In this document: positions 36,042 through 46,393 of the stretch, one piece after another
Layout: each line of letters begins with the position of its first letter
Numbering within the stretch: position 1 is the stretch's first letter
NCBI RefSeq assembly: GCF_004346685.1
Contig: NZ_SMCO01000008.1
Coordinates: 62,001 to 126,000 of the forward strand
Reading direction: 5' to 3'
Origin: Sulfurirhabdus autotrophica
GTDB taxonomy: Bacteria; Pseudomonadota; Gammaproteobacteria; Burkholderiales; SMCO01
Length of the DNA: 64,000 nucleotides
Program-made: the position numbers and the translations under genes
Notes under the pieces: model-generated
The model's input: the letters and a program-made list of their open reading frames with translations, nothing else
Told to the model about the DNA's origin: nothing
The model's database searches: none

Positions 36042-38246
36042 ATGATACAGACTCCCCCACCAATAAATTCCTACCGTAAATACTGGGCAAAACGCTTCGG
36101 CGTTGCCCCTGTACTGCCCATGTCACGTGCCGAAATGGACAAGCTTGGCTGGGATAGCTGCGACATTATTCTCGTCACCGGTGACGCCTATATTGACCAC
36201 CCTAGCTTCGGCATGGCACTGGTAGGAAGACTCCTGGAAGACCAGGGGTTCCGCGTGGGGATCATCAGCCAGCCGGACTGGCAAAGCGCCAAAGCCTTTG
36301 CTGCACTGGGCAAACCCAATCTGTTTTACGGAGTGACGGCCGGCAACATGGATTCCATGGTCAACCGCTACACTTCAGATCGTAAACTGCGTTCAGATGA
36401 CGCCTACACGCCTGATGGTGCAGGCGGTAAGCGCCCTGACAGAACCGTGGTTGTTTACTCTCAGCGCTGCAGGGAAGCGTATGGTGGTGTGCCTGTTATC
36501 ATCGGCGGCATTGAAGCCAGCCTGCGCCGTATTGCCCAGTATGATTACTGGTCAGACAAAGTACGCCGCTCAGTACTGCCGGATTCCAAAGCGGACATGC
36601 TGCTTTTCGGCAATGCAGAACGCGCCCTGGTAGAAGTAGCGCACAGATTGGCCCGTGGCGAAGCCATTTCAGATATAAAAGATGTGCGCGGCACCGCAAT
36701 CATGCGCAACGAAGTACCGGAAGGCTGGAGCGAAATCGACTCCAGTCACCTGGACACTCCCGGCCCTGTTGCGCCTAAGCTCAATCCCTATGACTGGGAT
36801 GAAAACAAAAAAGATAAAGCCTGCGATCAGGATAATCCAAAGCCGCCAGCAGAAAGCAATGTGCTGCCGCTACAGTTCCAGCACCGCAAGGTAATGAAGC
36901 TGGACCGCGCAACCAGCGTTATCCGCCTGCCATCTTACGAGCAGGTCGGTGAAGATCCGGTGCTCTACGCCCATGCTTCACGTATTCTGCATACGGAATC
37001 CAATCCGGGTAACGCGCGTGCATTAGTGCAAAAACACGGCAAACGCGATGTATGGATCAACCCGCCACCCATTCCGCTGACCACACCTGAGATGGACCAT
37101 GTCTATGGTCTGCCTTACAACCGCCTGCCGCATCCGTCTTACGGCAATGCCAAAATTCCCGCATATGAGATGATCCGGTTTTCGATCAACATCATGCGCG
37201 GCTGTTTTGGCGGGTGTACCTTTTGCTCTATTACAGAACATGAAGGGCGTATTATCCAGAGCCGGTCAGAAGAATCCGTTTTAACCGAAATTGAAGAAAT
37301 CCGCGACAAAGTACCGGGTTTCACCGGCATTATTTCTGATTTGGGCGGCCCTACCGCCAATATGTATCGCCTCGCTTGCAAAAGCCCCAAAATCGAATCC
37401 GCCTGCCGATTATTATCCTGCGTCTTTCCGGAAGTCTGCAGTAATCTGGGCACCGATCACGCTCCGTTGATTCAACTCTACCGCAAAGCCAGAGCGATTC
37501 CTGGCATCAAGAAGATTCTGATCAGTTCAGGCCTGCGATATGACTTGGCTGTACTCAATCCAGAATACGTTAAAGAACTGGTCACACACCATGTGGGCGG
37601 CTATCTCAAGATTGCACCGGAACACATTGAGGAAGGCCCACTTTCCAAGATGATGAAACCGGGTATTGGTGCGTATAACAAATTTAAAGAGTTATTTGAA
37701 AAATACTCGAAAGAAGCAGGTAAAGAGCAATATTTAATTCCCTATTTCATCGCAGCCCACCCCGGCACCACAGATGAAGACATGCTGAATCTTGCGCTAT
37801 GGCTTAAAAAGAACAGCTTCCGCCTGGATCAGGTACAAAACTTTCTGCCCTCTCCAATGGCGCTGGCAACGGCCATGTACTATTCAGGCAAGAATCCGCT
37901 ATGCAAAGTCACTAGAGATAGCGAAGCCGTCAAGAGCCCTAAATCAGCCACAACACGCAGACTGCATAAAGCTTTTTTGCGGTATCACGACCCCAACAAC
38001 TGGCCACTCATCCGCGATGCGCTCAAAAACATGGGCCGCAGCGATTTGATCGGCAATGGCAAACAACACCTCGTACCCCACTGGCAACCAATGGGAACAG
38101 GCCTGGCACACGAAGGTGCCCGACGCCCCGGAGCAGATGCGACGCGCCGCACCCCACACCCGGCAACAACAAGAACCATTACCCCCACGCGCAAAGCCCC
38201 CACCAGGACTTCAGGGAAGCGCAAAGCCGAAGGACGAGGACGTTAA
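36042..38246 (+). CDS. ygiQ: YgiQ-family radical SAM protein
   Basis: A 734-residue protein with an N-terminal UPF0313 domain ([30 protein letters not shown], outlined) and the radical SAM cluster motif CFGGCTFC (Cys-x3-Cys-x2-Cys) in [38 protein letters not shown] and [16 protein letters not shown] are family hallmarks. The C-terminus is basic and low complexity ([21 protein letters not shown]). The reaction is not known. The stop TAA is directly followed by the ATG of the next small gene. Confidence 0.96.
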
Positions 38247-42477: not shown

Positions 42478-43455
42478 ATGATTGTTCCACAATATTGGGC
42501 TGAGAGCCGTACTAAGCATCGGAAACAGGGAAAGCAAATCACTGCGCATCGTTTTGGCTGGTCTGACACCAGCCAGGAAGAAGCTCAGGCCAACGCAGAT
42601 AGCCGTGCACAAGAAGCACTCAAAAGATTAATCTCCGGTGAAAAATTAGTTCGCAGAGAACCGAAAACTCCCTACAACGGAGCTGAAGGCGTACCGATTC
42701 GTGAAGAGATTGTCAGCCGTCACGGCGAGACCATTATTACAAGAAACGCATACGGTGCAAGATGCCTGAACACGCCTGACGTGTTTTTTGCCGATATTGA
42801 TTTTCAAAATAAACCGTCAACGCGGTCTACATTAAATGTTTATACAATTCTGCTAGGTGCTGCAGCGGTTATCTGGTGGTTTACACAATCCAAAGTGCTT
42901 GGCATTTCCCTGCTGGTTTCTGCAATTTTATTCAGCAGTTATATCTCCAATGCTTTTTACCGAGCGATGCTACTGGCAAAGGGTGGTGCGGAGCGTGTTG
43001 CACGCAATCGCATAAGCCATTTTTTAGAACAACACCCAGCATGGAACATGCGTGTTTATCGCACCCCGGCAGGCATGCGCGTGATGGCTACCCATCAAAC
43101 TTTTAATCCTGGCGATCCTGCCGTAACAGCATGTTTTAATGCGTTGGGCACTGATCCTATTTATATGGCGATGTGTCTGAATCAGCAATGCTTTCGTGCG
43201 CGCGTCAGCGCAAAACCTTGGCGCATAGGCGTCGATCAGCACATAAAACCCCGCCCGGGAACATGGCCTGTCACCCCAGAGCGTTTGCCAGATAGAAACG
43301 CCTGGATCCAAACATACGAAACTGCGGCCGAGTCGTTTGCCGCTTGCACCCTGATTGAAACGATAGGCAGTGGCGTCACGCATCCTGACGCAAAACTCGT
43401 GCAGGAGTTACACGACAAACTATGCAAGGCAACCAGTCAATTGCCCATCGCTTGA
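42478..43455 (+). CDS. Conserved hypothetical transmembrane protein
   Basis: A 325-residue protein. The first part is cytosolic and basic (MIVPQYWAESRTKHRKQGKQIT), with a segment RNAYGARCLNTPDVFFADID (about 103-122) that looks conserved. Two membrane segments follow (about 138-152 and 157-175, YTILLGAAAVIWWFT and LGISLLVSAILFSSYIS), then a C-terminal cytosolic domain. I have seen similar proteins in proteobacterial genomes without a known role. It is followed by a 374-base gap that carries the promoter of the DUF2589 cassette. Confidence 0.7.
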   Translation: MIVPQYWAESRTKHRKQGKQITAHRFGWSDTSQEEAQANADSRAQEALKRLISGEKLVRREPKTPYNGAEGVPIREEIVSRHGETIITRNAYGARCLNTPDVFFADIDFQNKPSTRSTLNVYTILLGAAAVIWWFTQSKVLGISLLVSAILFSSYISNAFYRAMLLAKGGAERVARNRISHFLEQHPAWNMRVYRTPAGMRVMATHQTFNPGDPAVTACFNALGTDPIYMAMCLNQQCFRARVSAKPWRIGVDQHIKPRPGTWPVTPERLPDRNAWIQTYETAAESFAACTLIETIGSGVTHPDAKLVQELHDKLCKATSQLPIA

Positions 43456-43715: not shown

Positions 43716-43743
43716 TTGACAGTCGTTTTCGCTGAACTATATT
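43716..43743 (+). promoter_or_regulatory. Sigma70-type promoter of the DUF2589 cassette
   Basis: TTGACA (43716-43721) and TATATT (43738-43743) with a 16-base spacer. The start should fall near 43750, about 80 bases before the ATG at 43831, leaving a short leader with an imperfect palindrome (GATGAATCAG/GACTCATC). The rest of the 43,456-43,830 gap holds no gene. Confidence 0.7.
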
Positions 43744-43830
43744 GATTTTTAGATGAATCAGACGACTCATCCAATGAGGCACGAACATTCCGTGGCGTCT
43801 TAACTTTCAATTTTTTTGGAGGACGAAACA

Positions 43831-44487
43831 ATGCCAAGTCCAGGACAAGAATTATCCAGTATCGACTTCGAATCGATGATAGGCGGGCCTTTAGTCGCGG
43901 TAATCAACGCGCAAGCCTAGGCAGCAATGTCAACCGTCAATTTTATTAAAGAAGTTGGTTTTAAAAAGCCCAGTGCAGAGCAAGATGCAGGCGGCGACAC
44001 ATCTACAGAAGAGCCGATATACGTCAGTTTCAAATACCCTAAAGAACTGAGTCCGTACGTCCCGGCTGTTCCGGCAAATCCATCTGCAACGCCACCGGTT
44101 GCGGCTTCTCCTGCAGTACCGGCCGTTTATGAGACTCAGGAGTTAAAAGTACCTATCCTGACGATTTTACCGATTCCATTTATTCGTATTGAGTTGGCAA
44201 CTGTAGATTTCAACGCAAAAATCAATTCGATTGAGTACCGTAAAACCAATACTGATCTCAAGGTTAACGCATCACTGGAAGCAAAAGCCGGTTGGCTTTG
44301 GGGCTCTGCAAAACTCAAGGTATCAACCTCTTTCCAACGCACGACCCAGGAAGGAAACTCTGTCAATCGCACCTACTCTATGGCAGTCCATGTAAAGGCT
44401 GTACAAGATGAAATGCCTGCGGGTATGGAGAAGATGCTGGGAATACTGGAAAGCGCGATCACTTCTACTCCGGTAGCAGCGGCATAA
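43831..44487 (+). CDS. DUF2589 domain-containing protein with an in-frame amber codon
   Basis: A GGAGG site precedes the ATG 43831. The frame gives MPSPGQELSSIDFESMIGGP and VAVINAQA, then TAG (43918-43920, codon 30), then in the same frame AAMSTVNFIKEVGFK and the rest to 44487. DUF2589 proteins, as I recall, read NAQAQAAMSTVNFIK here, so a Gln codon CAG has become TAG. ATG 43927 lies six bases after the amber, so re-initiation could give a 186-residue shortened protein. VPILTILPIPFIRIE and VQDEMPAGMEKMLGILE are the DUF2589 signature. First gene of a four-gene cassette; function unknown. Confidence 0.8.
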
Positions 44488-44532
44488 AGTTTGTTTGCTT
44501 AATTAATCGATTTTAAGGCCTGTGGAGTAGTC

Positions 44533-45213
44533 ATGCCAAAATTAGGTGATTATTTAGGGCATATTTTGTCTGAAATAACAGTGGCAAGAATGCATGCCGA
44601 TATTGAATCTGTACGGGTGGCCGAGCTATATGCCGACCACCCATTATTGAAAAACATGCCTGTTCCCCGCTTCCGCATGCCTGATATCGATATCGACGTT
44701 CCAGTTGTCGTAAAGGAAATGGAGGAGCCTTCAGGTGGCGTATCTTCCCACGGCATTCCGCCTGTCGCAGACATGCGAAAAGTATTTGATAAAGCACTTT
44801 CTTCCGTGTTGGCTGAAAACCGTATCAACTTAACCGATGCCGTCAGAAGCAAGCTTAATACGATACTGGATCAAAGGGTAACGGCACTTACTCGCCCTTC
44901 TGAAACGGCAATTGATACAGGGCGTGTTTCACGTGATTTCATTAGTGTTTCCATGAAGACTTTGAGTACTGTTATGAAACCAGAAAAACAAGCAGAACTG
45001 GAGGCCCGGCTCAATGATGTACTACGTGTTGAATTGATCAAAATTCGAAAACCACCGGCACGTCTGAATGTGCTGGTTACGACAGCAGAAATTCGTGAGG
45101 CAGGCCCCTCTGAGGTCATTACGCACTTGCGCTTGAAAATTTCAGAAGAGGCCTTTGAATGGACAACCATCGAATCGGACGAAGGCAAAGATGATCGTTT
45201 AATCATCGAGTAA
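44533..45213 (+). CDS. Second protein of the DUF2589 cassette
   Basis: A 226-residue soluble protein. It starts MPKLGDYLGHILSEITVARM and has HPLLKNMPVPRFRMPDIDIDVPVVVKEME (outlined), a beta-type segment like the P-I-P motif region of DUF2589. The rest is helical (RKVFDKALSSVLAENRINLTDAVRSKL, ETAIDTGRVSRDF) with a final beta segment. It follows the DUF2589 gene after 45 bases and precedes gene 3 by six. In my memory this partner recurs next to DUF2589 genes in other genera, but no function is known. Probably physically associated with the DUF2589 protein. Confidence 0.72.
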   Translation: MPKLGDYLGHILSEITVARMHADIESVRVAELYADHPLLKNMPVPRFRMPDIDIDVPVVVKEMEEPSGGVSSHGIPPVADMRKVFDKALSSVLAENRINLTDAVRSKLNTILDQRVTALTRPSETAIDTGRVSRDFISVSMKTLSTVMKPEKQAELEARLNDVLRVELIKIRKPPARLNVLVTTAEIREAGPSEVITHLRLKISEEAFEWTTIESDEGKDDRLIIE

Positions 45214-45219
45214 CTTAAT

Positions 45220-45813
45220 ATGCTACGCATTGTCAATATTGAAGAAATTCAGAACATGCTGAGCAGCATTTCAGGGCTGGTTGATCTGCAGCAACGGCGC
45301 GATGCCAATTTCGATGACAAGGTTAAATTGTGGTTAGCGAAACTTGAAAAAATGCTTGAAAGAAATCGCATAATGCAAGTGGGCGAAGTGGCTACTTTAC
45401 GAGGTTTAATTCTTTCAGCAGAAAATGGGATTACCCCTCCCGGCATAGAGATACATGGCAACTCAACCAAACGAAAAATAATTGAAGCTGCAGTCACCTT
45501 TTCCCTTCGTCAGGCAAGCAGCGTGGTGTCGACAATTCTGCAAAAAGAGGTGGACAGGATATCTGATGCTGAACGTATGATGCGCCAGATCATTGCAATG
45601 GCCAAGTCTAAAGGACTTATTCCGGAAATTCCCGAAGCCAGCGATCATACTGAAGTGCTTAAATTCATCTGGCGTACACTTTCTGCCAATCCTGAAATAG
45701 CCCCTGGAACAACCAATGTGGAGGGTCTTGTTGGTCCCCATGATGCGCTTATTATTCTTGACCGTATCATTGCAAGCGATCTTCAAACGACAAAGCTTCA
45801 CCTGGAATCATGA
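45220..45813 (+). CDS. Third protein of the DUF2589 cassette
   Basis: A 197-residue, largely helical soluble protein (MLRIVNIEEIQNMLSSISGLVDLQQRRD..., DRISDAERMMRQIIAMAKSKG, KFIWRTLSANPEIAPG). No catalytic motif, signal peptide or membrane segment. Six bases after gene 2, so probably coupled. It resembles a scaffold or adaptor in composition, but I do not recognise a family. Confidence 0.65.
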   Translation: MLRIVNIEEIQNMLSSISGLVDLQQRRDANFDDKVKLWLAKLEKMLERNRIMQVGEVATLRGLILSAENGITPPGIEIHGNSTKRKIIEAAVTFSLRQASSVVSTILQKEVDRISDAERMMRQIIAMAKSKGLIPEIPEASDHTEVLKFIWRTLSANPEIAPGTTNVEGLVGPHDALIILDRIIASDLQTTKLHLES

Positions 45814-45841
45814 CCTGTATACAGGAAGAAAGAGCAATACA

Positions 45842-46393
45842 ATGCCTTTACAAGTAAATGTAAATACCGGCACTACGCCCTCCCCCCAGATTGTTGCAGC
45901 GAATACAGTGGTGGAACGTGCGCGCTCAATTGGCGATCCAAATGCATCCCGGGCGTTGGCTGTTACGATACCCGTTTGCAGAGTAGACCAGACTAAGCTG
46001 GAATATGAACAGCGGCGCAACGCAGGTCAGGTTGAGTTTCGCTTCAAGACTGGCATTCTTCAGCTGACATTGCGACAATCCATTTTCATCGCAAACAATA
46101 TCTCCGGTTGCGCGCAAGATATCTGGGCTGAACACGAACAGGATCATGCCACTGACAATCAGCAAATCATGAGCAGGATGGAGCGCGCTATCAGAGCACA
46201 TCGCGATTTGCAGAGCATTCTCATTTCACCCATTTGGCGCCCACGCAGGGCATTCAATACCGTGCAGGATACAATTCAGTCGACTGTTGGTAGCATTTTC
46301 ATGGAATTTACAACTGAGGCAGTACGAAGCCGCGACACCACTGCCGTCTACTCTGCCGTACGTGACCGAATTCGCCGTCAATGCAATCCTTAA
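45842..46393 (+). CDS. Fourth protein of the DUF2589 cassette, zincin-like HEQDH
   Basis: A 183-residue protein starting MPLQVNVNTGTTPSPQIVAANTVVERARS. The segment IWAEHEQDHATDNQQIM holds H98-E-Q-D-H102, the HExxH zinc motif of metallopeptidases, with a possible third ligand further on. ATG 45842 is preferred over the longer frame. It closes the cassette 28 bases after gene 3. If active, it could process the DUF2589 proteins; this is inference. An accidental HExxH match is possible in a short protein. Confidence 0.65.
   Translation: MPLQVNVNTGTTPSPQIVAANTVVERARSIGDPNASRALAVTIPVCRVDQTKLEYEQRRNAGQVEFRFKTGILQLTLRQSIFIANNISGCAQDIWAEHEQDHATDNQQIMSRMERAIRAHRDLQSILISPIWRPRRAFNTVQDTIQSTVGSIFMEFTTEAVRSRDTTAVYSAVRDRIRRQCNP

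Follow-up and report, generated by a model that had tools for sequence, protein, structure and literature searches.

A three-gene DUF2589 unit shared by Bacteria and Archaea, with an amber codon in gene 1 of the Sulfurirhabdus autotrophica copy

DUF2589 has so far been merely a name. A related system on record is a set of 'DUF2589 related genes' in Archaeoglobus fulgidus, AF0414-AF0417, which are up-regulated on lactate (PMC3949148); this paper, with a single mention, is the only one that our search of the literature on DUF2589 returned. Our analysis of a locus in Sulfurirhabdus autotrophica, and of its relatives in other genomes, shows that DUF2589 belongs to a defined system, a fixed three-gene unit in which it is accompanied by a paralogous partner. 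The system spans both prokaryotic domains under very strong constraint, and it can be expressed, purified and knocked out.

The window, by which we mean the whole stretch of 64,000 nucleotides that was analysed, carries four genes on one strand between 43831 and 46393, with gaps of 45, 6 and 28 bases (Table 1). This layout agrees with an earlier note on the same DNA, and so does the assignment of gene 1 to DUF2589: with its TAG codon read as Q, gene 1 matches PF11655 over profile positions 2-153 of 154, far above the cut-off. That note also suggested that the four genes may be a self-contained, undescribed unit. The proposal stands for genes 1-3, whose order is kept across Bacteria and Archaea, and falls for gene 4, which is a local accessory. 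The unit is thus a three-gene core with one accessory gene. The strong promoter described in the note is present as well. By chance, a match this good would be expected in 1.3% of composition-matched random sequences for the upstream gap, and alignment with L005 and L011, two loci of close relatives, gave no conserved block at this promoter. The start codon of gene 1 (ATG, 43831) follows a strong ribosome-binding site, and homologues keep the same start. No RNA element was found in the cassette region. Further upstream, a 325-aa ORF (window 42478-43455) contains a membrane-like stretch by inspection and has no Pfam match. A large radical-SAM-like gene, of the YgiQ type by inspection, lies upstream of the cassette both in the window (36042-38246) and in L011 (6379-8649), which hints at a common neighbourhood.

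Table 1. Features of the DUF2589 locus in window coordinates.
Feature	Position	Strand	Basis
Sigma-70-like promoter, TTGACA-16-TATATT	43716..43743	+	11/12 consensus matches
GGAGG ribosome-binding site of gene 1	43817..43821 (approximate ends)	+	Sequence; comparable sites in most homologues
Gene 1, DUF2589 protein, interrupted; 218 aa if read through	43831..44487	+	PF11655, 98.8 bits (cut-off 23); frame 1 with one TAG
TAG within the frame of gene 1 (codon 30; conserved N-terminal helix)	43918..43920	+	CAG/CAA in closer homologues
Rest of gene 1, open from Met33 (186 aa; possible restart)	43927..44487	+	Without a strong ribosome site
Hypervariable Pro/Ala-rich linker of gene 1, about residues 72-99	44044..44127	+	Low conservation
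Gene 2, 226 aa, remote DUF2589 relative	44533..45213	+	Predicted model (mean pLDDT 84.8) and profile searches
Gene 3, 197 aa, no family	45220..45813	+	After gene 2 in most loci
Gene 4, accessory, 183 aa; HEQDH at residues 98-102	45842..46393	+	75-76% identical in L005 and L011

A genome scan with gene 1 alone yielded 79 loci. The order gene 1, gene 2, gene 3 is kept in most of 77 loci, and in nearly all of those from the scan that have enough sequence. Loci with the cassette occur in Proteobacteria, Bacteroidota, Chloroflexota, Planctomycetota, Armatimonadota, methanogens and Bathyarchaeota, and no neighbour other than genes 1-3 is constant within 10 kb. Among 369 gammaproteobacterial genomes, DUF2589 and gene 2 are found in the same three, side by side. 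The earlier note had proposed co-occurrence across genomes as a check on the cassette, and the outcome divides it: genes 2 and 3 accompany DUF2589 elsewhere, and gene 4 is missing from most loci. Some copies of gene 3 were missed by tblastn and recovered by transitive BLAST.

The protein distances of genes 1, 2 and 3 correlate with one another (r 0.83-0.94, Mantel p <=0.0005), and in a tree built from the three proteins, Methanobacteriota, Bathyarchaeota, Thermodesulfobacteriota and Pseudomonadota are intermingled, with strong support. Here the window copy clusters, with full support, alongside Thiodiazotropha, a Methanotrichaceae MAG, Smithella and a gammaproteobacterium, and Methanocellales and Bathyarchaeota adjoin this group. 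Some tree members are binned contigs; the Bathyarchaeota copies, at 81% identity for gene 1, come from contigs that are 2.15 Mb and 278 kb long. Given that the three genes co-vary and that archaea and bacteria are mixed in the tree, we conclude that they have been transferred as a unit.

A second architecture, that of another branch, places a further, diverged DUF2589 in the third position (L063, L068, L080, G167, G313), followed in all of these except G313 by a small Zn-ribbon protein. The order DUF2589, gene 2-like protein, second DUF2589 and Zn-ribbon protein can be read at L063:10001-12661, L080:10001-12662 and L125:6431-9049. In L125 the next gene encodes a 329-aa protein without a Pfam family.

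Gene 1 evolves under strong constraint. Its dN/dS is about 0.03 (0.026-0.034), while genes 2 and 3, at 0.06-0.18, change several times faster. Synonymous sites in gene 1 are near saturation, so gene 1 is 80-95% identical across phyla through constraint and not merely through recent transfer, which we rejected as the cause. Within the protein, the linker has a mean conservation of 0.37-0.52, while the N-terminal helix and the C-terminal motif reach 0.66-0.84. The linker also tolerates inserts, with longer insertions and GSGYT-type repeats in L021, L027, L033 and L074; repeats of the GSGYTSAPTV type lie within the linker at L027:9983-10819, L033:6058-6792 and L074:5658-6359. The predicted model of gene 1 is poor (pLDDT 64.8), with a helix at residues 13-43 followed by strands. 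Searches against solved folds gave no convincing match for gene 1 or gene 2, and one viral model resembles gene 1 (BFVD A0A516MP19, E 8e-6).

Gene 2 is a remote DUF2589 relative, as reciprocal profile searches show. Against about 1,430 neighbourhood ORFs, the first 19 non-self places in the search with the gene 1 profile are all gene 2, and the first ten non-self matches of the gene 2 profile are all gene 1. These searches bear out the suggestion, made in the earlier note, that the two proteins share a segment, which we describe as a helix and a Pro-x-Pro strand. Both elements are collinear in a direct comparison of the two profiles (E 0.0017 for one comparison, at a low stated probability). 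The Pfam DUF2589 profile matches 4 of 50 gene 2 proteins weakly (best E 0.0024), and it is the sole Pfam family matched by more than one of the 25 gene 2 homologues listed. Gene 2 of the window has no Pfam match and so lies below the curated DUF2589 cut-off. Its predicted model contains an N-terminal helix (residues 4-35), the Pro-x-Pro strand (51-64), a helical bundle (78-171) and C-terminal strands. A known fold was also considered for gene 2; searches of PDB and viral folds gave merely common helical arrangements. Gene 3 has no relative in Pfam, NCBIfam or PDB, and the adaptor role suggested for it in the earlier note is conjectural.

Gene 4 carries the HEQDH sequence, an HExxH motif, as previously reported, and on this motif it may be a metallopeptidase. 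The gene is intact in L005 and L011. In two of five copies within this closest group it has decayed to frameshifted pieces, and since genes 1-3 are intact in these loci (L006 and L007), gene 4 seems dispensable. Both the intact copies of L005 and L011 and the broken ones (L006:2081-2378 and L007:12112-12424) keep HEQDH, although these sequences are so close that its retention is weak evidence. Beyond immediate relatives, no homologue of gene 4 was found in 339 class-level genomes or in viral contigs. The protein has no Pfam, NCBIfam or PDB sequence match and so matches no known metallopeptidase family. We considered DUF922 (PF06037) as its family and rejected it, as a profile comparison with four DUF922 proteins was not significant (0.3% probability, E 0.21).

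Other hydrolases lie beside the core elsewhere. S8 subtilases are near it in Bacteroidota, and a patatin is upstream of it in Chryseobacterium. L015 and L021 carry a PG_binding and VanY protein near the core; in L016 and L026 the protein there is M15-like by motif (187 aa) and has no Pfam match, in L017 it is a metallophosphoesterase and in L027 a GH18-like protein. In L045, L053, L057, L062 and their relatives, the gene just after gene 3 encodes an S8 subtilase with no obvious signal peptide; many of these loci have a separate protein of 64-68 aa after it, which resembles propeptide-type inhibitors. Many loci have no adjacent hydrolase. In a control, sharing of families across phyla is about thirty times background among adjacent genes, and nearly all of it is gene 3. 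Once gene 3 is set aside, two families are left that adjacent genes of different phyla share, where distant neighbours would predict about 1.4 pairs; the link between core and hydrolases is therefore suggestive only.

The window copy differs from its relatives within gene 1. The earlier note took 43831-44487 to be an intact frame and overlooked the TAG at codon 30, which leaves only residues 33-218 open. Every aligned homologue has a sense codon at this position, which among the closer ones is nearly always CAG or CAA. In a search of 29 further genomes, no DUF2589 gene had an internal stop. The surrounding helix is among the most conserved parts of the protein. TAG is an ordinary stop in the window, since 11 of the 48 ORFs of at least 150 aa end with it, and a scan of the organism's own genome with one narrow pattern found no amber tRNA. 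Both results disfavour amber recoding. The simplest reading is a recent nonsense mutation; a sequencing error is possible. We consider it improbable that the codon is instead read through, or that a programmed restart gives a shorter protein. Such an arrangement would fit with intact genes 2-4, with a remainder of gene 1 that is closely conserved (93.5% identical to L005) and with an ATG six bases past the TAG. However, it would have to accommodate the sense codon of every homologue, the ordinary use of TAG as a stop, a genome in which the narrow pattern met no amber tRNA, a Met33 without a strong ribosome site and the loss of a highly conserved segment before it. Under a nonsense mutation, what would be the main subunit is truncated in this genome, and the window copy is therefore probably inactive or the source of a fragment from Met33. 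Given the amber codon, it is a poor choice for experiments.

What might the unit do? We tentatively favour a protein assembly in the cytoplasm, possibly in the service of a lineage-specific hydrolase, a function that we infer with less than even confidence. Genes 1-3 would form a mobile operon for a hetero-oligomeric assembly, in which the DUF2589 protein would be the main and presumably highly expressed subunit. The diverged relative encoded by gene 2 would dock through the shared helix and Pro-x-Pro strand and add its helical bundle, and gene 3 would supply a third, lineage-bound component. Gene 1 would expose its variable Pro-rich linker on the surface of the assembly. In many lineages the assembly may be linked to a hydrolase that lacks a signal, and here gene 4 would take that slot. 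A bolder form, which we regard as unlikely, is that DUF2589, gene 2 and gene 3 make up an unrecognised, cross-domain molecular machine, a self-assembling cytoplasmic particle or filament of paralogous subunits that passes between bacteria and archaea and either carries interchangeable hydrolases or controls them.

Just as unlikely, in our estimate, is a housekeeping or stress structure such as a storage body, shell or filament, with gene 4 and the other hydrolases as chance neighbours. The constraint on gene 1 is like that of a self-assembling structural protein, the enzyme association does not exceed background in the cross-phylum control, and the Archaeoglobus genes rise together on lactate (PMC3949148). 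Chance neighbours are nevertheless harder to reconcile with S8, M15-like and HExxH genes that lie within about 50 bases of the core, or overlap it, in several lineages, and a housekeeping role sits poorly with presence in 3 of 369 genomes.

Less probable again is defence or self-killing, in which the core would sense phage or stress and activate a variable effector (patatin, S8 peptidase or HExxH protein). In favour of such a system, the core is conserved while its enzymes differ between lineages, the unit has spread patchily by transfer, and the enzymes belong to classes that are known effectors in other systems. However, the four window proteins have no significant PADLOC match (gene 3 gives a sub-significant one, to ZorB, E 0.019), there is no sensor or NTPase domain, and some of the linked enzymes are directed at peptidoglycan, which would be odd for a cytoplasmic suicide effector. 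The extreme conservation of gene 1 is also atypical of a component in an arms race.

The search for a mobile-element source gave little. Of 2.9 million viral contigs one matched, as did a 4 kb phage record that is unverified, and a viral origin was rejected; for a plasmid origin, also rejected, there were two distant matches, one of them to two DUF2589 genes in tandem on a plasmid of Vibrio tubiashii. The four window proteins have no significant PHROG match. PHROG virion families are matched by 2 of 50 DUF2589 copies, and by inspection both matches probably come from the inserted GSGYT-type repeat. A carrier that loads lytic enzymes or delivers them out of the cell, as an apparatus for antagonism or lysis, appears the least probable of these functions: inspection shows no signal peptides in the linked enzymes, among which are M15/peptidoglycan-binding, patatin and GH18-like proteins, and some DUF2589 linkers hold the repeats that probably account for the virion matches, but no secretion, sheath, tube or membrane component lies in or near the cassette, and DUF2589, which in the window copy has no PHROG counterpart, is rare in viral collections.

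The favoured assembly can be set beside three described families or gene groups. DUF922 comprises HExxH zinc peptidases with HEDGH-type motifs in related genomes; gene 4 has a motif of the same class, HEQDH, and no significant profile similarity to them. AF0414-AF0417 of Archaeoglobus fulgidus are likewise a cluster of short, co-regulated DUF2589-related genes; we liken them to the present unit by description, from a single mention that gives neither function nor architecture (PMC3949148). The third comparison is with DUF2589 itself (PF11655), which gene 1 matches over its whole length. The family describes a domain alone, of unknown function, whereas at this locus the domain is part of a conserved three-gene unit, in a copy that carries a nonsense codon.
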